From Kouleothrix aurantiaca (GTDB taxonomy: Bacteria > Chloroflexota > Chloroflexia > Chloroflexales > Roseiflexaceae), in NCBI GenBank assembly GCA_001399705.1, contig LJCR01000001.1, positions 1-31,283 of the forward strand: a DNA stretch of 31,283 bases. The letters run 5' to 3'. The notes under the pieces are model-generated. The model saw only the letters and a program-made list of their open reading frames with translations, searched no databases and had not been told where the DNA came from. A program made the position numbers and the translations under genes. Below are positions 907 to 23,310 of the stretch, one piece after another (position 1 is the first letter of the stretch; each line of letters starts with the position of its first letter).

Positions 907-947
907 ACTTTCCGTGGCTATGCCACACATAGCCACGGAAAGTTTTT
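907..947 (+). terminator. perfect 16-bp hairpin terminator overlapping promoter A
   Basis: Arms 907-922 and 928-943 are perfectly complementary (16 bp, loop CCACA) and are followed by a T run (943-947). It ends the small-gene unit that stops at 884. The right arm's last bases and the T run are also the AAGTTTT box of the promoter motif at 940-968. Confidence 0.75.
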
Positions 948-968
948 GTGTAACTGCTGCGTTAGATG
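940..968 (+). promoter_or_regulatory. element promoter motif copy A (for helicase)
   Basis: AAGTTTT (940-946), 13 nt, CGTTAGATG (960-968). It lies 31 nt before the helicase ATG at 1000, in the correct orientation. One of seven copies in the window with an invariant 13-nt spacer. Confidence 0.7.
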
Positions 969-999
969 GATGTATGACACCGAGAGGAGAAGGAGCAAG

Positions 1000-2490
1000 A
1001 TGCAAACGCGAACCCCCATTCTGCCACCATTAGAATATCCCGCCGCTGCGCTCCCGCATATTGCGGAGGAGCAGGCGCTGAGTGCGTGTCTGGGCGACAG
1101 CCATACTATCTATCGCCTTCGCGATGATCCGGCCGTGGGTCTTGACTGGCGCCATTTCGCCGGCGATGCGACGCGCCCAATCGCCGAAGCCATTTGGAAT
1201 CTGGTCGACCCCGCGCTGGCACCAGACGGAAAGCCCCGCACGGTGGAACGCGGCAATGTCATTATTGAACTCCAGCGGCTTGGGTATTGGGAGACGGTGG
1301 TGCGGCCGGATCTGCTCCGCCGCCTTGATAACAACGGCAGCAGTCCCGTCGTGCGCGCAGCCCCGGAGTATGCGCGTTTGGTGCGAGACGCGGCTATCGC
1401 CCGCAACCTGGCAGCGGCCGGCCGGGAGTTTACCGAACGCGTGCTCATGGATCCCAGCGGCGCACGCGGCTATGCGGGATTGCACGTCGACCAGGTGACC
1501 AAAGTGATTACCCACACAGGGCAGGTGGCGGATCACAGCATTCAACGCCACAACAGCGAAGAGTTCGCGGATGTGCCGGGGATCTACACCGGCATTCCGT
1601 TTTTTGATGTGACGGCTGGTGGCTGCGGCGAAGCCGAGATGATCGGCTGGCAGGGGGTCTTCAAAGATGGGAAGACCCGGACCATGTTGATGTCCATTCT
1701 GCGACTGCTGATGGCGGGCGTGCCCACCGTCGTGCTCACCACGGACAATCGGGCGCGCATGCTGCGGAACCGGCTAGCGGTCCTGATTGCGACAGATCAT
1801 ATGATGCGGGATAAGGTCGAGCATCTCGAAATGACCTTAGACCCCAAGCGCTTGTCGCCACGCTATTTGAGCGAAACCCAACAGCGCTATTTGGAGAAGG
1901 CGCGACAGTTCATTGACGATGTGATGAAGCTGTGGGTTTTGGACGCTACGGACGGCATTCAGGACTTCCAGAAGGGCTATGAGTGGCTGCATCGCTACAT
2001 CCGGCCGCCGTTCAATTGTCGCATCTGGGTGTGGGATCATCTCGCCGATCTCAGCTACAAAGGCTCCCAAGACTGGGATGCCTTCAAGCAGATCGTCAAC
2101 ACCTTAAAGACCGCCAATCAGGAGTGGGGCACGACCGGCATCCCAATCAATCAGAAGAAGGAAGGTGGCGACGGGGTGCGCAGCCATATGGGCGGGGCGT
2201 TCCCGCAGGCCCTCGATTACATGTACGAGCCGCGCACCTTCACGGTCTGGGAAAAGGATGCGGATACTGGCGAGGACATTGGAACCAAAGTCGTCGATGT
2301 CAAGCTCAGCGTGAGCCGCTGGAGTGAAGGGTTCACGCATCGGTATATCGTCAACCCGTCATCCGGGTATTTCACCAATCCCTTCACCGTACCATCGGCC
2401 CTGACGGAGGACCGAGAAAAGCTGCCCTACATCATGCTGAAGCGCGGTACCTGGGACGTGGAGCGCGACGGCGATCCGTACAATCATTAG
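1000..2490 (+). CDS. DnaB-like replicative helicase
   Basis: 496-aa putative replicative DNA helicase that would unwind the replication fork. The start at 1000 is supported by GAGAGGAGAAGGAG upstream. The same frame opens earlier, at 829, but that extension crosses the terminator and promoter. An N-terminal helical domain begins AEEQALSACLGD, typical of DnaB (residues 22-33), and is followed by a linker and a RecA-like domain. Walker A is GVFKDGKT (219-226), a divergent but valid GxxxxGKT. Walker B is RIWVWDHL with D346. A C-terminal NQKKEGGDGVRSHMGGA segment corresponds to the H4/arginine-finger region. The motifs deviate from bacterial DnaB, as is usual for phage members. It is co-oriented with and 9 nt ahead of the GNAT-like gene. 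No helicase loader or primase is recognised nearby. Confidence 0.82.
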   Translation: MQTRTPILPPLEYPAAALPHIAEEQALSACLGDSHTIYRLRDDPAVGLDWRHFAGDATRPIAEAIWNLVDPALAPDGKPRTVERGNVIIELQRLGYWETVVRPDLLRRLDNNGSSPVVRAAPEYARLVRDAAIARNLAAAGREFTERVLMDPSGARGYAGLHVDQVTKVITHTGQVADHSIQRHNSEEFADVPGIYTGIPFFDVTAGGCGEAEMIGWQGVFKDGKTRTMLMSILRLLMAGVPTVVLTTDNRARMLRNRLAVLIATDHMMRDKVEHLEMTLDPKRLSPRYLSETQQRYLEKARQFIDDVMKLWVLDATDGIQDFQKGYEWLHRYIRPPFNCRIWVWDHLADLSYKGSQDWDAFKQIVNTLKTANQEWGTTGIPINQKKEGGDGVRSHMGGAFPQALDYMYEPRTFTVWEKDADTGEDIGTKVVDVKLSVSRWSEGFTHRYIVNPSSGYFTNPFTVPSALTEDREKLPYIMLKRGTWDVERDGDPYNH

Positions 2491-2499
2491 CGAGGAAGT

Positions 2500-3150
2500 A
2501 TGAACGTGCGACGTGCCACAGACGCAGAAAAGGGATGGGCGCAAACCCAGGTCACCGCGCACCACTATTTGCATCGCCCGGTCGATAGCCGGTGCTCCAT
2601 CCTCACGTATGTCGTCGTCGCCGAGGAGCAGCTTGTTGGTTGTGTGATGTTTGGCCGGCCGGAGAGCACCCGCTGCTATACCGGCCGGCTTACCTATGGC
2701 AGTGTCGCCGATGTCCGAAGCGGGCGGGCGCAGTATTCGCGCTGGGAAATCATCAATCTGGCGCGCCTCTGGCTGGCGCCGTCGATCCAAACAGGCGGCG
2801 CTCGGTATATCCCGAATGCGGCGACCCACGCGATCGGCCTGGCCCTCAAGCAGCTGGTGGTTGACTATTTGGTGGCGTACCCGCCCGTCACGTTGGCCGA
2901 GCCGTGGCGATTGCAACGGGTGATTAGCTATTGTGACACGCGCATCCATCACGGTGGGGTGTATCGTGCGGCGGGGTTCACGCTGGTGCGCACCAATGCG
3001 GAGGGGATTGAGACGTGGGCGCGACCGCTACGCGGGCTGCAAGGGCATGAACGAAAAGTGATTGAGAAATTGACCGATCAATCAGCCCGTTCCCGAGGCT
3101 ACCGTTCGAAAATCGCGGTTGATCAGCATCAATTCTTTTCTTTACTCTAA
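2500..3150 (+). CDS. GNAT-fold / Mom-like phage protein
   Basis: 216 aa, starting 9 nt after the helicase stop with GAGGAAG upstream. The sequence resembles phage GNAT-superfamily proteins of the Mom type: an early HHYLHRP (21-27), a strand-like YVVVAEEQLVGCVMFGRPES, the central LARLWLAP, and a late HHGGVYRAAGFTLVRT reminiscent of the acetyl-CoA-fold core ending in a GW/GF motif. Mom proteins hypermodify adenine in phage DNA to block restriction. Whether this one does so is inference from motif pattern and from the surrounding DNA-modification genes. It could instead be another acyltransferase. A basic C-terminal tail (ERKVIEKL...RSRGYRSK) may bind nucleic acid. Transcribed with the helicase from promoter A. 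Confidence 0.5.
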   Translation: MNVRRATDAEKGWAQTQVTAHHYLHRPVDSRCSILTYVVVAEEQLVGCVMFGRPESTRCYTGRLTYGSVADVRSGRAQYSRWEIINLARLWLAPSIQTGGARYIPNAATHAIGLALKQLVVDYLVAYPPVTLAEPWRLQRVISYCDTRIHHGGVYRAAGFTLVRTNAEGIETWARPLRGLQGHERKVIEKLTDQSARSRGYRSKIAVDQHQFFSLL

Positions 3151-3200: not shown

Positions 3201-4064
3201 ATGAAGCTATCCCCCGAGCAATCATTTCCCCCGTATAAAGCCCTTGTCAATGGCTTTGTTCGCCATGAGTTGTTTATGCTTGAGGAAGGGGCTGCGATGC
3301 ATATGCCGCAACCCGATCTCTTTGCGGATTTGGCATTTGGGCTCTATGCCTTCTTTAAGCGTGATTCGCATATTGGTATGAATCGCTTGGTTCAGGATGC
3401 ACATATCTTTGCCCTGGCTCGCGAGATAACCTATTATTGCGCGAATTCGATCTCGGTAGTGATGAATCATGCATTGAAGGATCAGGTTTCCGCTCATATT
3501 CACCAGATTCAACGAACCTTTGCGGAACAGCGGCCTGCATTGTTATTGCCCGATGCCAGTACTGAGGATGTGCGAGTGTGGCATGAACAGATGCTTGCTG
3601 CGAATGCGTTGGACATCCAGCAACGGGTTGACTTTCAAGCAGTCTTGGTTGAACAGATTGGAAATACTTTCTTAGAGGGTATGGCCCGCTTTGGGGAATT
3701 GTATAACGAGTGCTCCACGCCTGTGGAAGAAGCATTCCTGATTGGGCTGTTTGGACTTCGCGATTCCTGGCCACGCTTGTTAGATTCAGCAGCCTTCACC
3801 AGCCACTACGCCATTGGCTCCTACCGTGTTGCCTTTATCATTGTGGATCATCATCGCCGTATTGCCATTGACATCGAGAGTCACTCGCCGGATGAACGCA
3901 CGACAGAAATGGGTGCGGCGGATCGTGCGCGCAATCGCTATCTCGAAAATGAGGGCTGGAAAATCCTGCATTTTCACCGCCGAGAGATTGAAATGGATCT
4001 CAATCGGTGCATTCAAATCGTAAATCATACGCTCAAAGGACTGCCGCTCGCTGGCGCATTGTAA
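3201..4064 (+). CDS. PD-(D/E)XK / DUF559-like nuclease-fold protein
   Basis: 287 aa, ATG 3201 with GAGGG upstream. Residues 1-170 are helical with no family I recognise. The C-terminal ~110 residues look like the Vsr/DUF559 branch of the PD-(D/E)XK nuclease fold: E177 in a helix (VEEAFL), strand YRVAFIIVDHHRRIAIDIESH with D224 and E226, then the DRARNRYLENEGWKILHFHRREIE helix-strand unit. That D..R..L...GW.h..F order is typical of DUF559. A role in cutting or recognising DNA is inference. The gene has its own promoter, is clearly more AT-rich than the helicase region, and looks like an independently acquired accessory (moron-like) gene, possibly defensive. Confidence 0.55.
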   Translation: MKLSPEQSFPPYKALVNGFVRHELFMLEEGAAMHMPQPDLFADLAFGLYAFFKRDSHIGMNRLVQDAHIFALAREITYYCANSISVVMNHALKDQVSAHIHQIQRTFAEQRPALLLPDASTEDVRVWHEQMLAANALDIQQRVDFQAVLVEQIGNTFLEGMARFGELYNECSTPVEEAFLIGLFGLRDSWPRLLDSAAFTSHYAIGSYRVAFIIVDHHRRIAIDIESHSPDERTTEMGAADRARNRYLENEGWKILHFHRREIEMDLNRCIQIVNHTLKGLPLAGAL

Positions 4065-6334: not shown

Positions 6335-6915
6335 GCCAAGCGCAACTGGCTGCCAGTCTCGCGGCTGGCCTCCTGGTCTGTGACCCCGCGCCGTCCGCGA
6401 TCACGGCAGCACACCTCGATCTGCATCTTGGGCGCTACTACTGGAAGCCGCGCTCGATCACCAGTATTGCGCGGGCGCTGAATGGGTTTCACGTAGCTGG
6501 GGAGGCGAGCACCAAAAAGGTGACACCCGTCGTTGATGTGGCAACGGCAGACCCGATCAAGTGCTACACGCTCTACGACAGCCGCGATACCCCGATCACG
6601 ATTGGCCCACGCGCGATGATTTTGGGGCATACCCTGGAGGCAGTGGGGTCGACGGTGCGCTCGCTGCACCCGCAGCTGCGGCCCAATCCCATGATCATCG
6701 CCTGGGGGCTGGTGCTGCACAGTGGCGTACAGCAGCATGGTATCTGGACCCTCGCGCTATACAACCGCAACGATTGGGCGCTCACGATTCCTCCGCATGC
6801 GCGGATTGCGATGATGGAGTTTCTCGCGGTGGATGACGAATCCCAGGAGCGCACCGTCTGGGATGCCACCTTGTGGTCACCCGAAACAATGCTGGATCAT
6901 ATGCATACGTGGTAG
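6328..6915 (+). CDS. dCTP deaminase/dUTPase-fold protein, divergent
   Basis: 195 aa. ATG 6328 lies inside the last codons of the kinase gene, with AAAGGAACGAGG as ribosome-binding site. The fold is suggested by HLDLHLGRYYW (29-39), ITIGPRAMILGHTLEAVGS (90-108, matching the LxPGexxLgxTlE segment), AWGLVLHSGVQQHGIWTLALYNRND (125-149) and IPPHARIAMMEFL (154-166), which together give the strand order of DCD/dUTPase trimers. The GRSSxAR active-site loop of true enzymes is not visible: the equivalent region reads VRSLHPQLRPN. It may therefore be inactive, regulatory or of altered specificity. dUTPase-fold proteins are common in phages. Confidence 0.6.
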   Translation: MLGQAQLAASLAAGLLVCDPAPSAITAAHLDLHLGRYYWKPRSITSIARALNGFHVAGEASTKKVTPVVDVATADPIKCYTLYDSRDTPITIGPRAMILGHTLEAVGSTVRSLHPQLRPNPMIIAWGLVLHSGVQQHGIWTLALYNRNDWALTIPPHARIAMMEFLAVDDESQERTVWDATLWSPETMLDHMHTW

Positions 6916-6928
6916 TGGGGAGGATGGG

Positions 6929-7066
6929 ATGAGAACGCAGAAGCCGACGAAGGATGATCATAGCACCACTTGGTATATCGAGGCGGTGCGCTGGGCACTC
7001 ACGATGGTCATTTTGCTGCTGCTCATTGCTCGGGCACTGATCCGCCGCTGGGTGCGGCTCGCATGA
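6929..7066 (+). CDS. small single-pass membrane protein
   Basis: 45 aa with GGGGAGG 4-10 nt upstream of ATG 6929. A polar N-terminal half (MRTQKPTKDDHSTTWYIE) precedes a hydrophobic helix (ALTMVILLLLIARALI) and a short basic end (RRWVRLA), giving an N-out/C-in type membrane miniprotein. It overlaps the next ORF by an ATGA junction at 7063. Function unknown. Confidence 0.55.
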   Translation: MRTQKPTKDDHSTTWYIEAVRWALTMVILLLLIARALIRRWVRLA

Positions 7067-9604: not shown

Positions 9605-10738
9605 TTAGCGCACCGTCATGGGCATGACAATGTGCATATAGCCATCGGCACCAATCGGCTTGAACACGCCCGGGTTCTGCGCCGTTTGCATCTCTATCGC
9701 GATCTGCGGTGTGCCAACGGAGGCAATTGCTTCTGCCAGGAACTTCACGTTCAGCGCAATTTGGCCGCCCTCCCCATCCACCATCCCATCAAGCTCACCT
9801 TTGTTATCGCCGACCTCTGCCGCGTTCGCACTAATCACCACTTTTCCGTTGGTTGGTCCATCGCTGAACTCCACCGCGAGCCGCACGATGTTCGACGAGG
9901 CGTTCGCAAAGTACGAGGCCAGCTTCACCGCCTTCGCCAGATCCTGCGTTTCGAGCACGGTACGGGTGTGGTAGCTAGTAGGAATGATCCGCTCGACCTC
10001 GGGGAAGCGGCCTTCAATCAGACGCGATACAAGCTCGGCCTGCTCGGTGTGGAACAGCACCTGTCCCCCGTTTGGGGTGACGGTGATCTCGACATTGCTT
10101 TCGGTGTCGCCAAGGATGCGGCTCAGCTCGAGCAGCGCGCGCGCCGGAATGATCACCTCCACCGGCTCGGCCACCGGCTCGGGCAACTCCACGGTGCGGA
10201 AGGCCAGCCGAAAGCCATCCGCAGCGGCGAACATCGCGGTTTTGCCACGCAGGCGCATCAGCACGCCCGCCAGCACCGGGCGGGTGTCGTCGGTCGCCGC
10301 GGCAAAGGCCACCTGATCAATGATCTCGCGCAGCAGTGCCGGCGGGAAGGATGTCACCACATCGGTGGTATCAATTTTGGGGATGACCGGGAACTCATCG
10401 GCTTCAATGCCTTTGATACTGGATTCATTGCGCGCGCACGTCAGCCCCATGGTTTGGGTACGCGCATCAAGCTGAAGCGTGATCTTGTCATTCGGCAAGC
10501 CGCCCACCACATCCGAGAGCAGCTTGGCGGGGATGGTCACCGCGCCCTCGTCCTCGATCTTCGCGCCGATCCAGCAGGTAATGCCGATCTCGAGGTTGGT
10601 GGCGGCGAGCTTCAGCCGTCCGTCATCCGTCGCGATCAGAATGTTCGACAGCACGGGCAGGGTGCTCTTGCCAGCGACCGCATGGCTCACGATGCCCAAG
10701 CCGCGCTTGAGGTTCTCCTGAAGGCATGCCAGTTTCAC
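9605..10738 (-). CDS. dnaN: DNA polymerase III sliding clamp (beta subunit)
   Basis: 377 aa, the full length of bacterial beta clamps, which encircle DNA and tether the polymerase. Start GTG 10738 with AAAGGAAG upstream. Diagnostic features are the N-terminal LKRGLGIVSHAVAGKSTLPVLSNILIATDDGRLKLAATNLEIGI, VTIPAKLLSDVV, the central RPVLAGVLMRLRGKTAMFAAADGFRLAFRTV, FPEVERIIPTSY, and the C-terminal GYMHIVMPMTVR, equivalent to the YxxMPM(R/L) end. It stands alone behind promoter B, separate from dnaA or recF, so it is an element-borne copy rather than the chromosomal dnaA-dnaN locus. No polymerase is seen in this window, so it may recruit the host polymerase or one encoded elsewhere. Confidence 0.93.
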   Translation of the reverse strand: MKLACLQENLKRGLGIVSHAVAGKSTLPVLSNILIATDDGRLKLAATNLEIGITCWIGAKIEDEGAVTIPAKLLSDVVGGLPNDKITLQLDARTQTMGLTCARNESSIKGIEADEFPVIPKIDTTDVVTSFPPALLREIIDQVAFAAATDDTRPVLAGVLMRLRGKTAMFAAADGFRLAFRTVELPEPVAEPVEVIIPARALLELSRILGDTESNVEITVTPNGGQVLFHTEQAELVSRLIEGRFPEVERIIPTSYHTRTVLETQDLAKAVKLASYFANASSNIVRLAVEFSDGPTNGKVVISANAAEVGDNKGELDGMVDGEGGQIALNVKFLAEAIASVGTPQIAIEMQTAQNPGVFKPIGADGYMHIVMPMTVR

Positions 10739-10771: not shown

Positions 10772-10800
10772 CATCTAACGCGCTGGCATGAGCATTTCTT
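10772..10800 (-). promoter_or_regulatory. element promoter motif copy B (for dnaN)
   Basis: On the minus strand AAGAAAT-N13-CGTTAGATG, ending 34 nt before the GTG start of the clamp gene. Shares the TGTGCAAGAAA...CATGCCAG context with copy C. Confidence 0.7.
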
Positions 10801-10808: not shown

Positions 10809-10839
10809 AAGGGTGATTGTGACAGTCACAATCACCCTT
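10809..10839. repeat. 15-bp palindrome with operator core, possible terminator
   Basis: Arms 10809-10823 and 10825-10839 around the 17-bp core ATTGTGACAGTCACAAT (10816-10832). It lies between the end of the SLOG operon (10868) and promoter B. On the minus strand it is followed by TTTTGTG, so it may also terminate that operon. Confidence 0.6.
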
Positions 10840-10867: not shown

Positions 10868-11197
10868 CTATGTAGTTTGCTCTTGCGGCTCCTGACGTCG
10901 AAGTCCAATGGTTTGATGACGCTGGATATCAGCCCCTTCACTTTCGAGATCCCAGCCAATATCAGTTCGCCGATAAAAACGAAAGGGAACCGACGGCAGT
11001 GGGAAGAGATGTAGATCTTCCGCCCAAACGGCCCAGCCATTCTCTGGGTCGCGTCGAATGATAACCGGCAGTACATCATTCTCTGGGTCATCATCTTCCC
11101 GAAACAGGAGTGTGACCCCGTCTATATAGTGTGCAACCGCGCCCCAGCCTCCAGAGAATTCCCACTGTTCGCGAGTAAAGGATTCAACGATGCTCAA
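10868..11197 (-). CDS. small hypothetical protein, last gene of SLOG operon
   Basis: 109 aa. The frame is open further upstream, but the best start is TTG 11197, which overlaps the previous stop as TTGA and has GGAGG 4 nt upstream. The product is acidic and aromatic: SIVESFTREQWEFSGGWGAVAHYIDGVTLLFREDDDPENDVLPVI..., with a WAVWAEDLHLFPLPSVPFRFYRR segment. No family recognised. As the terminal gene of the five-gene minus operon it should be expressed with Gp37/Gp68. Confidence 0.5.
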   Translation of the reverse strand: MSIVESFTREQWEFSGGWGAVAHYIDGVTLLFREDDDPENDVLPVIIRRDPENGWAVWAEDLHLFPLPSVPFRFYRRTDIGWDLESEGADIQRHQTIGLRRQEPQEQTT

Positions 11198-12054: not shown

Positions 12055-12392
12055 TTCATCAACTCCTTTCCAAGGAGTGGTTCCGCAGCTCGTGCCTGGA
12101 GGTAGCGCTCGGCTGGTTCACCGACAAGCAGAGCGACCGTCAGTGGGATGGGAAATTCCTCTCCACCCGCATAGGTATGCAGTGCCATGCTCAAGGTATC
12201 GCCAGCGACCAGTGTGTACCGTTTGACCGGGCCATCCACCATGGCAATGGTCAGCGCGCGCCCGGCCGCGAGGTAGAACGTATCGGCTTCCCGAACGACC
12301 ATCCCGACCGCCCAGCGGTCGAGCCAGCGGATCATAATTGTCGCCAGCGCACGCCGGCACTGGATCAGCCATCGTATCAGCCATTGTTTCAT
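12051..12392 (-). CDS. small hypothetical protein
   Basis: 113 aa from ATG 12392, which overlaps the preceding stop as ATGA, with GAAAGGA upstream. The N-terminus is a basic/aromatic amphipathic stretch (KQWLIRWLIQCRRALATIMIRWLDRW) that could associate with membrane. The remainder, YTLVAGDTLSMALHTYAGG and FPIPLTVALLVGEPAERYL, looks like a beta-rich domain. No family recognised. Tight coupling on both sides makes it a genuine operon member. Confidence 0.5.
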   Translation of the reverse strand: MKQWLIRWLIQCRRALATIMIRWLDRWAVGMVVREADTFYLAAGRALTIAMVDGPVKRYTLVAGDTLSMALHTYAGGEEFPIPLTVALLVGEPAERYLQARAAEPLLGKELMN

Positions 12393-13090
12393 GCCCGGTC
12401 CTTTCGTACGGTGATCAGCCACATCCACGCGCCCACAGCAACCCCGCGTGCCGCCCAAGCCGCTGCTAAGACAGCTTGTGGATATTGTGCGAAGCCACTA
12501 CGATCACTTGCATATTCCCACCCATAGGATGAGAGATATTTCCCTGCTTCGTTTTGCGGCCAATCCGATGGAAACGGGACTGGCGGAAGAAACGATTTCA
12601 CTCCAGCCGACTTACACGCCTGATCGCTCAGATCACAGAGCGGTTTCACGCGCACATTGCGAATGGTGAGCCAGATCCGCGCATCTTCTTTGCGGAGCTG
12701 CGTTGCGCTTCGCCACATGCGCGCCTGGGTCCATGCGGTGTGTTCCCCACCCCGATCCGCGCGAAAGTGCATGAGGGGTGGGCTGCCACTGGCGGGAAAG
12801 GTTTCGCACCGCCAGGCCTCCTGCCCATACAGCCGATCGCCGTCCTTGCCCCAGGGGCAGGTAAACCACTTCGCGTCATAGGGATAGTCGGGGTGAAAGC
12901 CGTTCCACACAGGGCGGCCGTGCTCATCGGTCTCCTGATAACCACCCGGTTCCCATGCTGGCTGCATCCGAATCGGCGGCACCTTGGGCGCGGTCATCGT
13001 CGGAACGACCGGGCGCAGGATCAGTGTTTGCTTGCCGGCGAGCACGTCGCGGGCTTCCTGATCGGTTAAGCGTAGTGCGCGTGTTGCCAT
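12389..13090 (-). CDS. ASCH/PUA-like phage protein (paralogue 1)
   Basis: 233 aa from ATG 13090 (GGGAG 9 nt upstream). Its core follows a pattern frequent in phage ASCH-like proteins: an early ILRPVVPT, then FTCPWGKDGDRLYGQEAWRCE (standing for CPYGxPGDxLWVRETW), a MHFRAD segment, and ARIWLTIRNVRVKPLCDLSDQACKSAGV (standing for SRxxLxITxVRxExLxxIxxxDAxxEG). ASCH/PUA-like domains bind RNA or modified bases. The function of this phage group is not established to my knowledge. A second copy of the same family is at 25093-25749, next to DNA-modification genes. Confidence 0.6.
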   Translation of the reverse strand: MATRALRLTDQEARDVLAGKQTLILRPVVPTMTAPKVPPIRMQPAWEPGGYQETDEHGRPVWNGFHPDYPYDAKWFTCPWGKDGDRLYGQEAWRCETFPASGSPPLMHFRADRGGEHTAWTQARMWRSATQLRKEDARIWLTIRNVRVKPLCDLSDQACKSAGVKSFLPPVPFPSDWPQNEAGKYLSSYGWEYASDRSGFAQYPQAVLAAAWAARGVAVGAWMWLITVRKDRA

Positions 13091-13091
13091 G

Positions 13092-13703
13092 CTAGTGCAC
13101 TCCCGCGTGTTCCCACCAGCCGTCGATTCCGGTCGGCTGCCAGTTCCAGCGGCCGCGATTGGGTGGCATGATCGGCAGCGGCAAGTACACCAGGCACGGC
13201 ACCCCGAGCCCCACCGCCACGCCAATGGTCGACCACGTGCCGCTGGTCTCTTTCTGCCGTAGCTGGTTCTTGCCCGCAATCCAGATGCCCGTTGGCTGAA
13301 TACTCCATGGGCAGGTTTTGGCAGGACCCGCAATCAGCAGCGCGGCCGGCTCACGGCTCAGATCCACCGCCAGCTTGATAGAGCGCGCAATCAGGGCCGC
13401 GTGCATTGATCCGCTACCCACATCCCGGTCGTACACCTGAAGATGGGTGGTCTCCTTGCCAAACATCTCGCAGACGCTTCGAATGAGCGCATCAACCCCT
13501 GCCGCATCGCCGACCCGCAGCAGTCGTTCCCGATCAGGAATGTCGGCCAGGAACAGCACCGTTTCCGCAGCCAGGCGCATCGCTTCCCAGGTTTGATCGT
13601 CCGGCTCCCGGCTGCCAGAAAACCCCACGACACAGCGGCCGGGCGGCTGAAGCAAACGCTGGAAGAGCAACGGTGCCGTGTGCGTCGCAACACTCGTGGT
13701 CAT
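13092..13703 (-). CDS. SLOG-fold (YspA/DUF2493-like) protein
   Basis: 203 aa from ATG 13703 with AAGGAAGGACGT upstream; GTG 13724 is an alternative. A Rossmann-like SLOG signature is clear: CVVGFSGSREPDD (25-37) and LLRVGDAAGVDALIRSV (61-77), matching the GSR and G-x-A-x-GVD nucleotide-ligand motifs. A later strand (CLVYLPLP) and the C-terminal Trp-rich tail follow. SLOG domains sense or process nucleotide-derived ligands and occur in DprA, LOG and several anti-phage systems. First gene of the operon driven by promoter C, followed 1 nt later by the ASCH-like gene. Confidence 0.65.
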   Translation of the reverse strand: MTTSVATHTAPLLFQRLLQPPGRCVVGFSGSREPDDQTWEAMRLAAETVLFLADIPDRERLLRVGDAAGVDALIRSVCEMFGKETTHLQVYDRDVGSGSMHAALIARSIKLAVDLSREPAALLIAGPAKTCPWSIQPTGIWIAGKNQLRQKETSGTWSTIGVAVGLGVPCLVYLPLPIMPPNRGRWNWQPTGIDGWWEHAGVH

Positions 13704-13725: not shown

Positions 13726-13742
13726 ATTGTGACAGTTCCAAT
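13726..13742. promoter_or_regulatory. 17-bp operator motif, copy downstream of promoter C
   Basis: ATTGTGACAGTTCCAAT between promoter C and the SLOG start. The gap from the CGTTAGATG box is 11 nt, identical to the promoter G/23322 arrangement. Confidence 0.6.
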
Positions 13743-13753: not shown

Positions 13754-13782
13754 CATCTAACGCCCTGGCATGACCTTTTCTT
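13754..13782 (-). promoter_or_regulatory. element promoter motif copy C (for SLOG operon)
   Basis: On the minus strand AAGAAAA-N13-CGTTAGATG, 50 nt before the SLOG ATG. Flanked by operator-like semi-palindromes on both sides. Confidence 0.7.
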
Positions 13783-13792: not shown

Positions 13793-13833
13793 GCGCCCAT
13801 CGCGATTGGAATTGTCACAATCGCGATGGGCGC
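13793..13833. repeat. 16-bp inverted repeat containing operator core
   Basis: Perfect arms 13793-13808 and 13818-13833. The 17-bp core ATTGGAATTGTCACAAT is at 13805-13821. It sits between the stop of the 1316-aa gene (13853) and promoter C. No T run follows, so an operator role is as likely as termination. Confidence 0.6.
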
Positions 13834-13852: not shown

Positions 13853-16800
13853 TTACGCGGCGCGTTTGGTCATCATGGCATAGATCGCCCGGCCCAATTC
13901 GAGCGTATCAATCGCTTCCCGCTCACCCGCGCCGGCCGCTTCAAGCGAGGCTTGCACATCCGCCCCATCCACCTGCTCTGAGGCCATAATCTTGCGCGTC
14001 AACAGCTCTTGCGCAAGGGTTTGGGCGGTATCGCCATAGACAGGAACAAAGATGCGCACCGCTTTGGTTTGCCCAATGCGATGCACCCGGCCGTTGGCTT
14101 GCCGGAATACGATGGCATTGCAGTTTGGATTTTCCATCCATAGCACCGTAGCAAAGTGCACCAGATTGTTGAGGCCGGTTTGCACCGTCACGGGATTGGC
14201 GATCATAATCCGCTTGCCCGGTGTGATCACCTTCTGGTTAATCCAGGCTTCCCGCTTCTGCGTAGAGGCGGCGTTGGCGGTCAAGATCACCGCCTCCACG
14301 CCAAGCTGTTCCGCAATCAAGCGGCGCAAGCGCTCCGCAAGATTGGCATGCGTGATATAGATCAGGATATTCCGCCCTTCGTCCAATTCCTGTGTGAGCG
14401 TATCAAGCATCCATTGTTCTTTCGGCAGGATCGTATCAGCCGAAAAGAGATCGGCGCTGGTGACCAGCCCGGCCCCAATGCTCTCAGGGTAGCGCACATC
14501 CCAGCGCTGCGTTGCCTGGGACGCCACGCCATTGCCGGTGTCTTGCGTTGCCCGATCATAGAAGCTCGGTAGTTGCCCCAGCGCGCCAAACAGCTTGCCC
14601 GCCAGTCCACTAAACGAATCTTGCCCGATCTGGCGTGCGGTGGCAGTCAGCAGTGCCCGGCCGCGCGTGCGCAGGACCGTATCGGTAAAGTTGGCGCGGT
14701 CTGCGGGGATGGTGATAATCTCTGGGGTCGCCGGCGGCAGCGCGTCGTCAAGATCGGACTTCTGAATGGTGACCGCGATGGGAAGCAAATGCTGCAAGAG
14801 CAAGAGGGGCAACACGCCGGGCGCTTCCCCAAGGGTCCGGATCACGCGCATATCGGCATCCCGCCGATCCGTGGTTGCCCCATAGGAAGCGACGGCAGCG
14901 GGCTGGTCATCCTCTGCTTCACTCAGCACCTTGCGATACCCGTAGCGCGTCACAAAGTTGGTGACCTCATCGCGCCGAAACTCCGTCCGAAACCGACGCG
15001 AGAGTGCCCACAAATTCCGAAAGAGACCGGACGCATACCCATTCATCAGGGAACCCGTCAGCAACAGTGTGGGCTTCCCAAGCTCTGAAAGCCGGTGCGC
15101 GGCAATCTCTTGCGCCGATCCATCCCCTGCAAACTCATGCCCTTCGTCAAGGACCAAGAGATCAAACCGATTCGGTGCATGGCGCGTGATGTACTTCGCG
15201 ATCGAATACCGGCGTGGCGTCGGCACGGCACTGTACAGCGGCTCGTTGCAGACCGCCCCTGCGTTCCATGTGGCATGCTTACTTAGCAATTCGAGCGCAT
15301 ATTCCACCGCACGCGGCCCGGCGACATGATCACGCCAGCGCAGCGTATTCGTTATCCGAATGGCATAGTCACCCCATTCCAGAGCAACCGGGCCTTCCCC
15401 GCGCAGATCCGCATGCAAGCGGGCAATGGTTTTGGTGAGCTTGTCCCATGGGTTTGATGCCGTGAGCGAGGGATACGTATTCTTGTCGAGATTGAGCGCC
15501 TGCAATTCACGGATCACCGCCTGTTGCATGGGCGCATCCGGCGGCAGCAGCGCTATCACTTCCCGTAAGGCATTGCGCACGCGCGCGGCTTTGCCGTAGG
15601 GGCTGGCATCCGCTGTGGTGAGCAGATACAGGGTGCGAACGTGTGCAACCAGCGCTGCATGGGCCGCATCACCCGCCGAAAACAGCAACATGCCAAGCAT
15701 GAGAATCAGCTCTTCCAACACACTATCGGATGCCTTGCGGTAGGTTTTGGCAATGTAGGCGGTGATTCGCTGTGCAAGCGCGCCAAGTGGACTGGATTCA
15801 AACGATGCGGCGATGCCACGCCAGCGCCGATCCCAGAGGGCCTGATAGGCTGCCAGTTGGTCTTCCTTCGGAAGATCGGCAAGCCGCGCAAACACCCGAT
15901 TCGCAGAGGCACGCAAGAGCCGTTGGGGCGCATAGTGTTGCACCCGCGCGTTCATGGGCGCGGCGGGGGTCAAGAGCACCGCCAGATCGGTGGCAATGCG
16001 CGCCGGGGTATTGGCCGGCTGCATGGGTTGATGGGTGCACCGGCGACGCTCTTTCGCTAACACACTATCGACGGTCACCACGAATGCGCCACAGCGCGGG
16101 CATGTCTGCTGTGCGGTGCGTGCCGCTGCAACGCCATGGCTGAGTTTGGCCGCTTCCCGCGAAAGAATAAAGAAGGTCAACCCCGCGCCGGGTGCATCCG
16201 GATTCGGACTGGGCACATCAGCATGCACATCGCTGATGCTTTGGATGATCACGACACCCGCCCCTGGCACGACGGCACGCATCTGATCCCGCCAGCCTTC
16301 GAGCAAATGCGGTGGGCACAAAACCAGCGCACGCTGTACCGGCCGCACATCTGCGGCATGGCCCTGCTGTGATAAGGCCGATCGCACGGTCGCAACATGG
16401 TGCGATTGTAAGGCGGCAATCACCGCCAACGCAATGGTGCTTTTGCCTGTGCCTACTTCCCCAATCACAAACGGATGGATCCCACGTCCAAGCAGCTTGA
16501 GCGTGGCGCTAATGGCGTCCAATTGCGCGCGGTACGGGGTGCGCGCAAGCGCGGGCAAGGGCAGCCGGGCCGATGGGTCGTTAATCGGATGGATGGCGGG
16601 GCACATCCGCGCCATGACATCCCCCATCGCACCCTGATACCGATCCAACAGATCGGCGACGGTAAACGTATCAAGATCCTCGGCAGCCGTTGGCACCGTG
16701 CCGGGCTTCACATCGTAATAGCGCCCGTTGTCAATATCCAAGACACACAGGCGCAACGACGGCTGCTGCACTTGGACCACGCCAATGGTCTCGCCTTCCT

Positions 16801-17803
16801 TATTGGTCTTTCGCTCTACGGTCACCAGCTCGCGCTCGAACACACCTTTCGCTAACAGATCGGGCAAATAGCCCGCATCCGGCCGGAGAACGGCGCCATT
16901 CATAATGCCCGCCGAAAGCGCCTGCGCAATATGGCCGGGCCGGGGTGGCATGGCGAGTTCATACGGTTGCCCGCCAAGCAGTGCCGCCATCGGCTGATCC
17001 AACCCGTAGCGCTTCATGCCGCCGCTGGCATCCATCCCTACCCGCATCGCCGCTTGATACCCGTGCACATCGATGGGGGTCATGCGCCAGTATTCAAGGG
17101 TGCTCAGATGCCCCGAGAGTTTCAGCACGGGCGCGGGGTCCGCTGCGAGTGTCGGAATCGTGGCCGCATCAGCGGCCCATGTATGGATGCGCGCGAGAAG
17201 CCAATCATCGGGATTCGGCAGTGGTGATTCGCGCCGGCGGGCAACCAACACCACCTGCTTAAATTGCTCGAATGCCTCGGGAAAGAAGCGAAAACACGAC
17301 ACCGAATCATAGTGCGTTGCGAGGTGCGCAGCGGATGCCGCCAGCGCGTAGTGGGGAACCACCAAGAGCAGCGCGCCATGGCCCGGCATAAGCACGTCCG
17401 TAAAGCGCACCAGAAAGCGATGTTCCAGCCGCTTGGTTTGCGCATCGGTATCATACGGCGGGTTCAAGTACAGCACATGCCCGCCGCCCTTCCATGTCAG
17501 TCGAAACGCATCACCCTGTACGGCATACTGTCCCGCATGCCATCCCAATGTGGTGTTGACCGCCTGGCGGAGTGTCTCTGCCCGCTCGGTTTCCAGTTCA
17601 CAGGCAAACAGATTGGGCGTGATTCGCGTTGAATCGCACCACGTATCGAGGATGCCAAGCACCGCCGCGCCATCGGCAGCACACGGATCAATGATCGCGA
17701 GTTTTCCACAGGCCGATGGATCAATCAGCGCGGCAATTGGCCCAATGTGATCGGCTGGGAGTGCGTAATACCCGCCTAATGCCTGCGATTCAATGCGTGC
17801 CAT
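13853..17803 (-). CDS. DNA methyltransferase-helicase fusion (SNF2-like)
   Basis: 1316 aa from ATG 17803. The N-terminal ~200 residues form a DUF6094-like N6-adenine methyltransferase: SAM motif IIDPCAADGAAVLG (37-50), acidic CELE (68-71) and catalytic NPPY (114-117). Next comes a ~200-residue linker, then a superfamily-2 helicase: Walker A GEVGTGKS (448-455), motif Ia-like ALVLCPPHLLEGW, a zinc-like insertion with C568/C571/C589, a long helical insert, Walker B VLDEGHEF (DEGH 886-889), motif III LLTGSLMNGY (about 914-923), a C-terminal lobe ILIYITHANLAERL, and motif VI QANGRVHRIGQ (1234-1244), typical of SNF2 translocases. Phage P1 DarB is a known MTase-helicase anti-restriction protein, and DISARM and BREX use similar parts on separate chains. 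Anti-restriction is my favoured role, by analogy only. Confidence 0.82.
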   Translation of the reverse strand: MARIESQALGGYYALPADHIGPIAALIDPSACGKLAIIDPCAADGAAVLGILDTWCDSTRITPNLFACELETERAETLRQAVNTTLGWHAGQYAVQGDAFRLTWKGGGHVLYLNPPYDTDAQTKRLEHRFLVRFTDVLMPGHGALLLVVPHYALAASAAHLATHYDSVSCFRFFPEAFEQFKQVVLVARRRESPLPNPDDWLLARIHTWAADAATIPTLAADPAPVLKLSGHLSTLEYWRMTPIDVHGYQAAMRVGMDASGGMKRYGLDQPMAALLGGQPYELAMPPRPGHIAQALSAGIMNGAVLRPDAGYLPDLLAKGVFERELVTVERKTNKEGETIGVVQVQQPSLRLCVLDIDNGRYYDVKPGTVPTAAEDLDTFTVADLLDRYQGAMGDVMARMCPAIHPINDPSARLPLPALARTPYRAQLDAISATLKLLGRGIHPFVIGEVGTGKSTIALAVIAALQSHHVATVRSALSQQGHAADVRPVQRALVLCPPHLLEGWRDQMRAVVPGAGVVIIQSISDVHADVPSPNPDAPGAGLTFFILSREAAKLSHGVAAARTAQQTCPRCGAFVVTVDSVLAKERRRCTHQPMQPANTPARIATDLAVLLTPAAPMNARVQHYAPQRLLRASANRVFARLADLPKEDQLAAYQALWDRRWRGIAASFESSPLGALAQRITAYIAKTYRKASDSVLEELILMLGMLLFSAGDAAHAALVAHVRTLYLLTTADASPYGKAARVRNALREVIALLPPDAPMQQAVIRELQALNLDKNTYPSLTASNPWDKLTKTIARLHADLRGEGPVALEWGDYAIRITNTLRWRDHVAGPRAVEYALELLSKHATWNAGAVCNEPLYSAVPTPRRYSIAKYITRHAPNRFDLLVLDEGHEFAGDGSAQEIAAHRLSELGKPTLLLTGSLMNGYASGLFRNLWALSRRFRTEFRRDEVTNFVTRYGYRKVLSEAEDDQPAAVASYGATTDRRDADMRVIRTLGEAPGVLPLLLLQHLLPIAVTIQKSDLDDALPPATPEIITIPADRANFTDTVLRTRGRALLTATARQIGQDSFSGLAGKLFGALGQLPSFYDRATQDTGNGVASQATQRWDVRYPESIGAGLVTSADLFSADTILPKEQWMLDTLTQELDEGRNILIYITHANLAERLRRLIAEQLGVEAVILTANAASTQKREAWINQKVITPGKRIMIANPVTVQTGLNNLVHFATVLWMENPNCNAIVFRQANGRVHRIGQTKAVRIFVPVYGDTAQTLAQELLTRKIMASEQVDGADVQASLEAAGAGEREAIDTLELGRAIYAMMTKRAA

Positions 17804-17833: not shown

Positions 17834-17862
17834 TATCTAACGCATCAGGACGCCAAAATCTT
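17834..17862 (-). promoter_or_regulatory. element promoter motif copy D (for MTase-helicase)
   Basis: On the minus strand AAGATTT-N13-CGTTAGATA, 30 nt before ATG 17803 and just after the stop of the 312-aa gene at 17867. The most diverged second box (A instead of final G). Confidence 0.6.
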
Positions 17863-17866: not shown

Positions 17867-18805
17867 TTACGCGGCTACGTGTGCCCACTCTTGGACCGCG
17901 ACATAGCGCGCCGCTTCGGTGGCAAGCAGCTGATCCACCGCCGCATGGCTGGCATATCCCGCTATCCCTGGCAGCAGTCCGACCGCCCCGGTCTCTTCTT
18001 CAATGAAGCTCGCAGCCCACTTGTGCCGCGCAAAATGCCAGAGGTCGCTCGGGTTGTCTTTGTAGTTGGCGCGGCTGGCGGATGAGCTTGCCAAACTGAA
18101 CACGCCACTCGCCAAGCCCGCAAAGTAGAGTTGCAGCGCAAAGGCCGGGGTCATGAACATCGGCCGGCGCGTGCGCCGATCCACATACGAGCGCACATAG
18201 ACCGCAATCGGCACCAGCGCAAGCAGCGCATCCGGGGTAAGCAGGCGCGTATCAATCCCGATCGTGTACAAATGGGGTGTCAGGCGGCGCATATGCTGCA
18301 CAATCTCACTGCCCATTGCCCGATCCGTGCGGAGAGTATCGCGTTCCTGGTCAACCCACCAACGCGGTGGCAGCGCGAGAAAGCGGATCCCTTCTGGTGC
18401 GATGAGGCCGGGATCGATCCCCAACAGATCGTCCAAGCTGGCGATCACAATTTCGCCGTTACTGTCATCAGGCAGGACAATGCGGCGCGTGGTATAGGTA
18501 TAGCCCGCGCTGCGCAGCAATTCAAAGCGCGTTGGCTTGCCCCGGCTATAGGAACTGCGGTGTGGATCGTGCAAGATGGCGGGCCGGCCCTTGCGCATGT
18601 TCGCCACGAAGGGCCGCAGCTCAGCTTCCCCACCGGCCAGCGCCATCCATACCGGGCGGATCGGTCCATCCGCCGTGCCGCTGGCACTCCACAGCATCCC
18701 CGCGCAGACATGCGCTAACTTGACCGCGCTAAACTGGCGGGTTTTGGCCGCGATGCGGTGCGTGCTCTCTGGCTCTTTGCCTGGTTCAATCGTCAACATC
18801 TGCAT
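17867..18805 (-). CDS. 312-aa protein of unknown function
   Basis: Begins at ATG 18805 (GGGAGA 8 nt upstream). The open frame continues far upstream but that part is antisense to the 18932 methyltransferase and is not used. No family recognised. Visible traits: an N-terminal helical part (HRIAAKTRQFSAVKLAHVCAGMLW), a central acidic strand-like region (NGEIVIASLDDLLGIDPGLI), LALPPRWWVDQERD, and a C-terminal helix-rich segment (SDLWHFARHKWAASFIEEE). It has its own promoter (E) divergent from the methyltransferase and lies directly upstream of the methyltransferase-helicase on the same strand, so a partnership with either is plausible but unproven. Confidence 0.6.
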   Translation of the reverse strand: MQMLTIEPGKEPESTHRIAAKTRQFSAVKLAHVCAGMLWSASGTADGPIRPVWMALAGGEAELRPFVANMRKGRPAILHDPHRSSYSRGKPTRFELLRSAGYTYTTRRIVLPDDSNGEIVIASLDDLLGIDPGLIAPEGIRFLALPPRWWVDQERDTLRTDRAMGSEIVQHMRRLTPHLYTIGIDTRLLTPDALLALVPIAVYVRSYVDRRTRRPMFMTPAFALQLYFAGLASGVFSLASSSASRANYKDNPSDLWHFARHKWAASFIEEETGAVGLLPGIAGYASHAAVDQLLATEAARYVAVQEWAHVAA

Positions 18806-18837: not shown

Positions 18838-18866
18838 CATCTAACGCATTGGAAAGCCAAAAACTT
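18838..18866 (-). promoter_or_regulatory. element promoter motif copy E (for 312-aa gene)
   Basis: On the minus strand AAGTTTT-N13-CGTTAGATG, 32 nt before ATG 18805. Its first box is 6 bp (GCATGG) from that of copy F, forming a divergent pair. Confidence 0.7.
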
Positions 18867-18872: not shown

Positions 18873-18901
18873 AAGTTTTGTGCATGTCGCTGCGTTAGAT
18901 G
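18873..18901 (+). promoter_or_regulatory. element promoter motif copy F (for MTase operon)
   Basis: AAGTTTT (18873-18879), 13 nt, CGTTAGATG (18893-18901), 30 nt before ATG 18932. The ATG inside the box (18899) is in frame with the gene but is part of the promoter. Confidence 0.7.
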
Positions 18902-19700: not shown

Positions 19701-19925
19701 ATGCAGTGTCCTCACTGTGGCCAACCTGTTGTGGAAACCCGCAGAGTGTTGGTTCCAACCGACCAAATTCGCCAGCTCTACGAAGAAGAAGGCATGAGTT
19801 TGCAGCGAATTGCCGACGAGTTGCACGTCAGCGCGCACACGATCCAGCGCCGCATGGAAGATCTGGGCATTCCCCGGCGTCAGAAGGGATGGCGCGCCGC
19901 CCGGCGAACCAGCAGCCCCGCATGA
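19701..19925 (+). CDS. zinc/HTH small DNA-binding protein
   Basis: 74 aa from ATG 19701 with a strong AAGGAGGAAGG ribosome-binding site. Residues 1-10 (MQCPHCGQPV) hold one CxxC knuckle. Residues ~20-60 form a helix-turn-helix of the resolvase/sigma-region-4 style: IRQLYEEEGMSLQRIADELHVSAHTIQRRMEDLGI. A basic tail follows (RRQKGWRAARR). A plausible local transcription regulator. It overlaps the next gene by ATGA. Confidence 0.65.
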   Translation: MQCPHCGQPVVETRRVLVPTDQIRQLYEEEGMSLQRIADELHVSAHTIQRRMEDLGIPRRQKGWRAARRTSSPA

Positions 19926-21075: not shown

Positions 21076-21092
21076 ATTGTAACAGTCACAAT
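21076..21092. promoter_or_regulatory. 17-bp operator motif, stand-alone copy
   Basis: ATTGTAACAGTCACAAT in the 49-nt gap before ATG 21114. No CGTTAGATG box accompanies this copy. Confidence 0.5.
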
Positions 21093-21113
21093 CACCATGT
21101 ACCAGGAGGTTCT

Positions 21114-21681: not shown

Positions 21682-23063
21682 TCCACATCTATCACAGCGA
21701 TACCATTGATGTGCTGCCCGGCCTGGCACCGCAGACCGTGCAATGTGTATTCACCAGCCCACCCTATTATGGACTGCGGGATTACAACTTGCCGCCGACC
21801 AACTGGCCCAGCCTGGAATATGCACCGATGGCAGTCCCGCCATCGGTGCATATTCCAGGCTGCGATACGGACTGCAACCACGAGTGGGGCAATCCCATTC
21901 GCGCGCCATGGGCCAATGGGGTTGCAGGGCCGAATGGGCGGCAACTCAACGCTCCAGCCGGGCATCAGAAGACCAAGCAGAGTGGCAGGTATTGTCTCCG
22001 CTGTGGTGGGTGGCAGGGCTGCCTTGGGATGGAGCCCGACCCGCTCATGTTCATTGGGTACCTGGTCTCCATTTTTCGCTTGGTCTGGCCGCTCCTGCGC
22101 GATGATGGGTGCGTGTGGCTCAATCTCGGGGATTCGTATGCTGCGGGCGGCAATGGCGGCGGTGGGTCGTTTATGGCGGAACGCGCCCACAAAGCCTGGG
22201 AGCATCGCGCAGATCGGCGCGGCTACCGAAAACCACCGCCCGGCCTGAAGCAGAAAGATCTGCTTGGCATCCCGTGGCGCGCCGCGCTCGCGCTGCAAGC
22301 CGATGGGTGGTATCTGCGCTCGGACGTCATCTGGGCGAAACCGAACGCGATGCCGGAATCGGTGAAGGATCGGCCCACCAAAGCGCACGAATACATCTTC
22401 CTGCTGAGCAAGAATGAAACCTATTCCTACAACGCCGACGCGATTGCCGAGCCGTCCTTCACCACTGATCGACGGCCAGTTGGTGGCTCTACCGGCACAC
22501 TCGGTCCCCTGAACAGTCGACGCCGGCCGCAGCGCCAGCGCGCACTGGAGCTTGCGCAGCAAGCCGGACTGACCCAGCTGCATTTTGATGCCATTCGCGC
22601 GGCCGGCATTACCGACACCGGAAAAGCAGCCATCACCCAAACCGGGGCCGGAAAGAACACCGAGATGGTGCAGCAGCTCGCCGCTGAAGCCAAGGCGGTC
22701 TTGAAGGGCTACTACCGCGAGTTCCTCTCCAAAGAGACGCGCAACCGCCGCAGTATCTGGGAGTATGCCGCGCGCGATCAGGCGGCGCGCCGGAATCGTC
22801 GCACGATCTGGCGGATTGCCGCACGCGGGATTCGCGAGGCCCACTTTGCGACCTTTCCGGAAGAGTTGGTCGAGCTGGGGCTGCTGGCCAGCACACGCCC
22901 AGGCGACACCGTGCTCGATCTGTTTTCGGGTTCGGGAACCACGCTCCGGGTCGCCGAGCGCCTCGGCCGGCACAGCATTGGCATCGACCTCAATCCCGAG
23001 TACATCGACCTGCAATACAAGCGAACTGACGGCATCCAAGTGCATATGGAGGCGCTGTTATGA
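21678..23063 (+). CDS. amino DNA methyltransferase (N4-C/N6-A), SPPY type
   Basis: 461 aa from ATG 21678, overlapping the previous stop (ATGA). Motif IV TSPPYYGLRDY (SPPY 27-30) lies near the N-terminus and SAM motif I VLDLFSGSGTTLRVAERLGRHSIGIDLNPEY at the C-terminus, the beta-class order. Between them are a cysteine-bearing insert (CDTDCNHEWG and YCLRCGGWQGCLGMEPDP, likely zinc), DDGCVWLNLGDSYA, YLRSDVIWAKPNAMPESVKDRPTKAHEYIFLLSK and a target-recognition region with many Arg. SPPY often marks N4-cytosine enzymes, but the base cannot be decided here. A perfect 23-bp inverted repeat lies in the coding sequence at 21809-21862. No restriction endonuclease is adjacent. Confidence 0.85.
   Translation: MIHIYHSDTIDVLPGLAPQTVQCVFTSPPYYGLRDYNLPPTNWPSLEYAPMAVPPSVHIPGCDTDCNHEWGNPIRAPWANGVAGPNGRQLNAPAGHQKTKQSGRYCLRCGGWQGCLGMEPDPLMFIGYLVSIFRLVWPLLRDDGCVWLNLGDSYAAGGNGGGGSFMAERAHKAWEHRADRRGYRKPPPGLKQKDLLGIPWRAALALQADGWYLRSDVIWAKPNAMPESVKDRPTKAHEYIFLLSKNETYSYNADAIAEPSFTTDRRPVGGSTGTLGPLNSRRRPQRQRALELAQQAGLTQLHFDAIRAAGITDTGKAAITQTGAGKNTEMVQQLAAEAKAVLKGYYREFLSKETRNRRSIWEYAARDQAARRNRRTIWRIAARGIREAHFATFPEELVELGLLASTRPGDTVLDLFSGSGTTLRVAERLGRHSIGIDLNPEYIDLQYKRTDGIQVHMEALL
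21809..21862. repeat. perfect 23-bp inverted repeat inside MTase gene
   Basis: Arms 21809-21831 and 21840-21862 are exact reverse complements with an 8-nt loop. The segment encodes the SLEYAPMAVPPSVHIPGC region of the methyltransferase. No T run follows. Confidence 0.8.
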
Positions 23064-23281
23064 AATCTTGCAACCCATTGCTCACGGACCAGGATCTGCG
23101 CGGGCAGCTCGCGATCCGCATTCTGAATGAAACGCAGGGCAATCAGCAGGCGTTTGCGAAACAGCACGACATCTCGCCCGCCTATGTCTCGGATGTGCTG
23201 TGCGGCCGGCGCGCCCCCGGCGCAAAGATCCTCGCCGCGCTGGGGTATGAGCGCGTGGTGGGGTATCGGCAGATCACGTGA
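23060..23281 (+). CDS. XRE/Cro-like small HTH regulator
   Basis: 73 aa from ATG 23060, overlapping the methyltransferase stop (ATGA), GGAGG upstream. NQQAFAKQHDISPAYVSDVLCGRRAPGAKILAALGYERV is a Cro/C1-type helix-turn-helix, truncated to a minimal one-domain protein. It directly precedes promoter G and its operator-like palindrome, making it the best local candidate for the factor that binds the 17-bp motif, though this is a guess. Controller-type HTH proteins often accompany methyltransferases. Confidence 0.7.
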   Translation: MKSCNPLLTDQDLRGQLAIRILNETQGNQQAFAKQHDISPAYVSDVLCGRRAPGAKILAALGYERVVGYRQIT

Positions 23282-23310
23282 AAGTTTTCGCGGGGCTGGG
23301 GCGTTAGATG
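23282..23310 (+). promoter_or_regulatory. element promoter motif copy G (for modification cluster)
   Basis: AAGTTTT (23282-23288), 13 nt, CGTTAGATG (23302-23310), immediately after the HTH stop and 56 nt before ATG 23367. Confidence 0.7.

Follow-up and report, generated by a model that had tools for sequence, protein, structure and literature searches.

We analysed the window, a stretch of 31,283 nucleotides that forms the entire contig C1 (LJCR01000001.1) of a Kouleothrix aurantiaca metagenome-assembled genome (MAG; 3843 contigs totalling 7.8 Mb, with a completeness of 83.5% and a contamination of 7.5%). The window carries genes for a sliding clamp, a methyltransferase-helicase and DNA modification, and upstream of them lie copies of a two-box motif that the original prediction had read as the promoter of an element-wide regulon. 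All seven predicted copies were confirmed in the window, each with its position, strand and boxes. The spacer between the boxes was exactly 13 nt in all seven, and the chosen start codons lay 30, 30, 31, 32, 33, 50 and 56 nt past the second box (box 2). For the copy at 18873-18901, an ATG at 30 nt was chosen over the GTG at 18 nt that the script had ranked first. The copies and the genes that they are predicted to drive were as follows.

940..968, + strand: promoter copy 1, AAGTTTT-N13-CGTTAGATG; drives 1000-2490 (product weakly DnaB-like, below cut-off)
10772..10800, - strand: promoter copy 2, first box AAGAAAT; drives the sliding clamp gene DnaN, 9605-10738, with a GTG start 33 nt past box 2
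13754..13782, - strand: promoter copy 3, first box AAGAAAA; drives 13092-13703 (203 amino acids, no family match)
17834..17862, - strand: promoter copy 4, first box AAGATTT, box 2 CGTTAGATA; drives 13853-17803, a 1316-amino-acid methyltransferase-helicase
18838..18866, - strand: promoter copy 5, first box AAGTTTT, divergent from copy 6; drives 17867-18805 (312 amino acids, no family match)
18873..18901, + strand: promoter copy 6, first box AAGTTTT; drives an N6/N4 methyltransferase gene ending at 19690
23282..23310, + strand: promoter copy 7, first box AAGTTTT, beginning directly after a stop codon; drives a 78-amino-acid open reading frame (ORF) from 23367

Further genes probably lie under the same control. 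Copy 1 probably also drives a Mom-family gene (2500-3150) and a DUF559 gene (3201-4064), copy 3 probably drives 12389-13333 (PHROG 874) and 11194-12054 (DUF5131), and copy 7 probably drives a downstream cluster with a PAPS-reductase domain gene (23964-25085) and a C5 methyltransferase gene (26406-28208). Only 6 bp separate the first boxes of copies 5 and 6, so these two sites can probably not hold two polymerases at once. The SLOG label once given to the 13092-13703 product was not borne out, as no Pfam, PHROG or NCBIfam match was found. The helicase, queried as the longer ORF 829-2490, gave no tblastn match in phages.

Extent and form of the motif

We compared a close form of the predicted pattern with shuffled sequence. 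At three or fewer mismatches, the results showed 8 matches in the window against 0.68 expected, and none of 100 shuffles reached 8. In the whole MAG, the pattern as predicted had 11 exact sites, namely the seven in the window and four on contigs C2236, C3057 and C3456, and its reversed control had none. With two mismatches allowed, 28 places were found, further true copies included, against 26 in the reversed control. Because the control rose to this level, box 2 was then read site by site in the phage contigs.

These contigs were defined by a second element, the 17-bp palindrome ATTGTRACWGTYACAAT. At one mismatch or fewer it occurred at 20 places in the MAG, all on C1, C113, C779, C913, C1913, C2236, C3057 and C3456, so that the palindrome alone singles out eight of the 3843 contigs and serves as a phage fingerprint; five of the eight carry the motif. 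C113 (also L098) codes for a terminase large subunit, a portal protein and a partial tape-measure protein, and is also present in IMG/VR; C779 (L099) codes for a minor tail protein and part of a tape-measure protein. Because the palindrome picks these eight contigs and two of them hold structural genes, we assigned them, about 96 kb in total, to a tailed phage or its close relatives. They may represent one phage with a genome broken over at least eight MAG contigs, which are tied by shared sequence elements and not by assembly; their binning with the host MAG is not proof of infection. The tape-measure protein is apparently divided across the ends of C113 and C779 (L098 17680-end; L099 13809-16865), indicating that these two are probably adjacent in the phage genome. 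The methyltransferase-helicase (13853-17803, - strand) has full-length relatives in jumbo-phage contigs of 41-485 kb at 36-38% identity, besides weaker ones in bacterial genomes, and the phage genome may therefore be much larger than 96 kb.

Reading box 2 (CGTTAGATG, at most one mismatch) across the eight contigs gave 23 rows. We kept 17, which had CGTTAGAT and a first box, and dropped six whose core was altered and which lacked a first box (at 24541 and 28202 in the window; L011 3498 and 6037; L099 2727 and 3068). Seven of the 17 copies lie in the window, four on C2236 (L009), and two each on C3057 (L010), C3456 (L011) and C913 (L100). In every copy the spacer was 13 nt, the AA of the first box (box 1) began exactly 20 nt ahead of box 2, and a purine stood directly before box 2. 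At its ninth position box 2 had G in 15 of 17, and TG was preferred immediately upstream of AAR (T 12/17, G 14/17). The consensus over the five contigs was thus approximately TG-x-AAR-W4-N12-R-CGTTAGATG. The predicted first boxes held for the window, but across all copies TG-x-AAR-WWWW, with an occasional G or C in the W run, is the better description. The word CGTTAGATG occurred 15 times in the eight contigs, always within one of the 17 copies, against 0.73 expected at uniform base use. In a weight-matrix scan the copies scored 23.2-44.0, and the best of four shuffles reached 9.8; leave-one-out scores were 10.5-41.2, with 10.5 and 16.3 for the two weakest. One further place was recorded.

19858..19886, + strand: possible degenerate eighth window copy (matrix score 22.5), within the 19701-19925 ORF; uncertain

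The position of the copies relative to genes was then assessed. An ORF of at least 45 codons started 25-56 nt past box 2 in 15 of the 17 copies, at 27-34 nt in 11 of these 15, and many of the 15 starts have a ribosome-binding site. At L010 1813 an ATG at 25 nt was taken over the script's earlier start, and with it 12 of the 15 start codons fall at 25-34 nt. The two copies without such a start are L009 58, at a contig edge, and L100 2587, which has nothing but very short ORFs behind it. Under a stricter start criterion, 13 of 17 copies qualified, compared with 11.8% of 4000 random window positions, and every copy with an assignable gene points toward that gene. A TATAAT-like element 0-12 nt past box 2 showed no excess (mean 2.88/6; control 2.86). 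Start codons at 25-34 nt are too close to box 2 for another -10 and a leader to fit in between. Given these short leaders and the lack of TATAAT (0-12 nt past box 2) or GATATT (17-19 nt past CGTTAGA) above controls, box 2 must be the -10 and box 1 the -35. The reading of the motif as a promoter class with its own regulon is well supported by the 17-copy set, the gene starts, the matrix scan and the restriction to phage contigs.

The predicted lack of fit to sigma70 was upheld, with a best -10 score of 3/6 in every copy; box 1 agreed with TTGACA at only 3-4 of 6 positions, a comparison with no control run. The suggested likeness of box 1 to sigma28 -35 elements failed, since the base before AAR was A in seven copies, C in five and G in five, and the base before that was G in 14 of 17. 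The sigma28 promoter consensus is TAAA...GCCGATAA. We rejected a sigma28 promoter, as there is no TAAA at the -35 and box 2 is CGTTAGATG, not GCCGATAA. An inverted repeat across the -10 is no general feature of the copies: its mean was 5.8, compared with 5.2 for controls, although 3 of 17 copies reached 8 bp compared with 3.3% of controls. At L010 2703-2731 and downstream, a 15-bp inverted repeat covers the -10 of that single promoter.

The motif was largely confined to the phage contigs. A scan of the MAG gave 14 exact places; among the 13 listed, 12 were on phage contigs and one, on C2001, was antisense within an ORF, and the 14th was taken to be C3456 7231. Of 299 related genomes, 19 had one or two places each and none had more; the reversed control also gave scattered matches there, up to four in one genome. 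Within the phage contigs, the element-wide regulon was borne out in part: it extends over five contigs, but the structural contigs lack it, with none of the 17 copies in the 41.6 kb read from C113, C779 and the functionally unassigned C1913 (P ~6e-5).

When viral collections were scanned with two exact forms, one form matched 16 stretches and the other 40, once per stretch, and we rejected these matches as chance-like; the stretches examined had no second full motif and no palindrome, and four had a further lone CGTTAGAT. The huge phage LR745208, with 37% identity to the methyltransferase-helicase, had 15 places at two mismatches against 21 for the reversed control, and thus no excess. The full motif was absent from the loci with methyltransferase-helicase relatives, 29 in genomes and 12 viral, and three of these loci had a lone CGTTAGATG (5 expected). 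We also rejected another gapped motif for the structural contigs, as a search there, the palindrome aside, ranked mostly G+C-rich pairs at the top (single-base shuffle). As a word in the literature, CGTTAGATG appeared, among the papers listed, once per paper and under titles unrelated to phage promoters, which is weak evidence for novelty.

The candidate reader P0001 and its rivals

The original prediction had proposed several readers of the motif. Among them a phage-encoded sigma factor gained most, because an extracytoplasmic function (ECF)-like candidate, P0001, is encoded at L011 5311-5958 on C3456, a contig with two motif copies. P0001 matched Pfam PF07638 Sigma70_ECF at 23.1 bits (cut-off 21.1), only in the sigma4 (C-terminal) part. 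The only close relative found elsewhere, P0002, is 91-92% identical, lies on an 883-bp contig and matched PF07638 at 23.3 bits. TIGR02937 aligned over P0001 residues 93-195 with 17 bits (E 0.0034), below its cut-off of 42.9. An AlphaFold model (two sequences) had helices at 36-111 and 137-199, separated by a gap of about 25 residues, a helical layout compatible with an ECF sigma, which consists of sigma2 and sigma4 only with a linker under 50. When this model was searched with Foldseek against 350,542 chains, the first nine PDB rows were ECF sigma chains (SigL, SigH, AlgU, sigmaE and RpoE-NepR, the sigma in row 9m98_F being unnamed), aligned over 156-189 columns. From sequence and model, P0001 is probably a sigma factor, and we infer with a probability of roughly 0.57 that it reads the promoter class as a divergent ECF-like sigma on host core RNA polymerase.

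Several observations weigh against this assignment. The model is poor (mean predicted local distance difference test 51.9), and no Foldseek match was significant (best E 0.12), the first nine having root-mean-square deviations of 12.6-27.6 and template modelling scores of at most 0.19 by query length. P0001 is an orphan apart from P0002. Searches of its contig with PF04542 (E 0.001) and PF08281 (E 1) came up empty, an hhalign comparison with five sigma proteins of the host aligned only the helix-turn-helix (HTH; probability 1.1), and phmmer of P0001 against PDB found no sigma. The HTH fits other families about equally (HTH_38 E 2.5e-5, below cut-off), and VIA-align placed other helical proteins first, with sigma chains at ranks 43 and 50. 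The -35 reads AAG (14/17) or AAA (3/17) rather than AAC, no motif copy lies upstream of the P0001 gene to indicate autoregulation, and the gene lies off the window contig, to which its own contig is linked by shared elements only. A pattern search found no relatives of P0001 in IMG/VR, and tblastn against 50,697 phage records gave no match at E 0.1, gp36 and gp47 not being compared directly.

To our knowledge, few phage-encoded sigma factors have mapped promoters, and no ECF-type phage regulon was found among the matches listed in the open-access literature. In the present case promoter, regulon and candidate reader were all derived from sequence alone, in an uncultured phage. The closest parallel in arrangement is phage 7-11 (phiEco32-like), where, according to excerpts of PMC8948821, the phage sigma gp47 gives host core RNA polymerase a bipartite promoter of fixed spacing, GTAAtg-(16)-aCTA, with starts 6-9 bp from the element and with use of the -35 going together with region 4. 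The phage 7-11 promoters serve late genes, whereas CGTTAGATG lies before replication and modification genes. In its parts, the motif resembles ECF (group 4) promoters. Excerpts of PMC8103513 and PMC3426412 give AAC at -35 and CGT at -10 for ECF promoters, AAC/CGTT for EcfG and TGTCACA-N16-CGTC for ECF41, with 16-17 nt between the elements. All 17 copies have CGTT at the -10 and the spacing AAR-N17-CGTT; the overall geometry is TGxAAG-N17-CGTT. The motif departs from ECF promoters in its AAG/AAA for AAC, in the near constancy of its 9-base -10, in the lack of autoregulation and in its location on a phage.

Four other explanations were weighed against P0001 as the reader. The phage might exploit a host alternative (ECF) sigma, with P0001 as an ordinary HTH regulator; the MAG has 16 Sigma70_r2 matches (E 0.001) and 44 Sigma70_r4_2 matches (E 1), and the evidence for a sigma2 region in P0001 is weak. 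We consider this unlikely, since the sole exact MAG place that is not on a phage contig lies antisense within an ORF, and ECF sigmas are typically autoregulated (excerpts of PMC8103513), so that with a host reader one or more copies would be expected there, although one could be missed in a MAG of this completeness. Also improbable is a redirection of the host enzyme, whether through a MotA/AsiA-like activator or appropriator of the phage or through a minimal sigma with a single HTH, for which the protein listed next is a candidate.

19701..19925, + strand: 74-amino-acid protein; CPHC motif at the N terminus and a single HTH; below-cut-off matches resembling sigma region 4 (TIGR02937 E 0.00034)

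These sub-threshold matches make it a second, weaker candidate reader or helper, and excerpts of PMC7824862 describe single-HTH minimal sigma factors from group 2 jumbo phages. Redirection of the polymerase does not agree with the poor sigma70 fit of both boxes given above, and a 9-nt -10 that scarcely varies points to a dedicated sigma2 domain, for which a protein of 74 amino acids hardly has room. The same excerpts report sigma factors, minimal sigma factors and a gp33 thought to recruit host RNA polymerase in group 2 jumbo phages, but name no ECF type; the full motif is missing from the 12 viral loci mentioned above.

CGTTAGA is also identical to the -35 of SPO1-type late promoters (gp33/gp34), where, in excerpts of PMC3601020, it precedes GATATT. 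Under an SPO1-like late reading, CGTTAGA-N17-19-GATATT, box 2 could be the -35 and the true -10 would lie downstream, and a TATAAT search 15-19 nt past CGTTAGA did give a small excess (3.0/6 against 2.28 in the control). However, most copies have their ribosome-binding region at this distance, and a -10 placed here would deprive most genes of a leader; no GATATT appeared at N17-19 (mean 2.24/6 against 2.15), CGTTAGA is here the downstream box, and the constant first box would be unexplained. We regard this reading as hardly credible. A role as an operator or RNA-level element rather than a core promoter is very improbable. Operators likewise sit just upstream of genes, and nothing specific spoke for one; the motif is bipartite with a fixed offset and gene-oriented, and 12 of the 15 start codons (25-34 nt) leave no room for another -10 plus leader.

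Switching of the P0001 gene, the palindrome and neighbouring genes

The P0001 gene is preceded by the promoter TTGACA-N18-TATAAT, a 12/12 sigma70 match, with its -10 inside the palindrome ATTGGGGTATAATCCCCAAT (ATTGGGG-N6-CCCCAAT) at L011 5234-5253. A divergent 11/12 sigma70 promoter serves an HTH gene at L011 4610-5167 (HTH_26, below cut-off), and the 113-amino-acid gene after P0001, considered as a possible co-transcribed anti-sigma gene of the ECF kind, has its own 10/12 sigma70-like promoter. The eight contigs have seven sigma70 sites of at least 11/12, where about 0.2 would be expected; none of the seven is in the window. Two more operator-like palindromes, with 0 and 1 mismatch, at L011 7141-7160 and 7205-7224, are flanked by a ParB-like gene and by another HTH gene, 6425-6994, whose HTH_31 match is below cut-off. 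The exact operator palindrome occurred at two places in the MAG, both on C3456; at two mismatches there were 14 places, several on other contigs, against one for the reversed control. By eye, a 9-bp inverted repeat was seen in the P0001 gene leader (L011 5254-5285).

This arrangement points to a sigma gene that is expressed early, can be repressed and supplies a middle-like class, the timing and the repressor being inferred. Host sigma70 would first transcribe the P0001 gene from TTGACA-N18-TATAAT, and the gene would probably be gated at ATTGGGG-N6-CCCCAAT, over its -10, by a repressor, for which the two HTH proteins encoded nearby are candidates. P0001 on host core RNA polymerase would then turn on the replication, clamp, methyltransferase, modification and ParB-like genes as a middle-like class. 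The motif would be the core promoter of this transcription class of a tailed phage, with a -35 of about TG-x-AAR-WWWW, a -10 of R-CGTTAGATG and a transcription start about 6-9 nt past box 2. Structural genes would stay outside the P0001 regulon.

The 17-bp palindrome lies at the following places in the window.

10816..10832, no strand: 17-bp palindrome ATTGTRACWGTYACAAT, upstream of promoter copy 2
13726..13742, no strand: 17-bp palindrome, 1 mismatch, in the leader of promoter copy 3
13805..13821, no strand: 17-bp palindrome, 2 mismatches, upstream of promoter copy 3
21076..21092, no strand: 17-bp palindrome, just before an ATG
23322..23338, no strand: 17-bp palindrome, 1 mismatch, in the leader of promoter copy 7

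At two or fewer mismatches there were 21 places in the eight contigs and none in 10 shuffles. Over 22 places (at most three mismatches), pairing extended into the flanks by 3.5 bp on average compared with 0.37 at random, seven places having no extension. The palindrome is close to 6 of the 17 motif promoters and occurs in the structural contigs as well, and the three longest leaders (49, 50 and 56 nt) are the three that contain one. An operator, a hairpin and a partition site are candidate roles. A general intrinsic terminator was rejected, as no consistent T-run was seen by eye, though L100 2892 has one. The ParB-like protein at L011 7289-8320 (+ strand; PHROG 1033, E 6.5e-10), whose gene has a motif copy as its predicted promoter, possibly reads the 17-bp palindrome. 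It is a doubtful but conceivable extension that the large phage has a complete ECF-type regulon, in which a repressor-gated orphan two-domain sigma, made from a perfect host-type promoter, would command at least 17 replication, modification and partition promoters, with a second layer of 21 palindromes spanning the structural genes and perhaps read, KorB-like, by the ParB-like regulon member.

Two observations concern other genes of the window. The Mom-family gene at 2500-3150 (PF25680) shares the contig with three more methyltransferase genes, the methyltransferase-helicase gene and a PAPS-reductase-like gene, and this company suggests that the phage DNA is likely to be heavily modified. A histidine kinase with a receiver domain, which is unusual for a phage, is encoded on this phage contig at 4589-6334 (+ strand).

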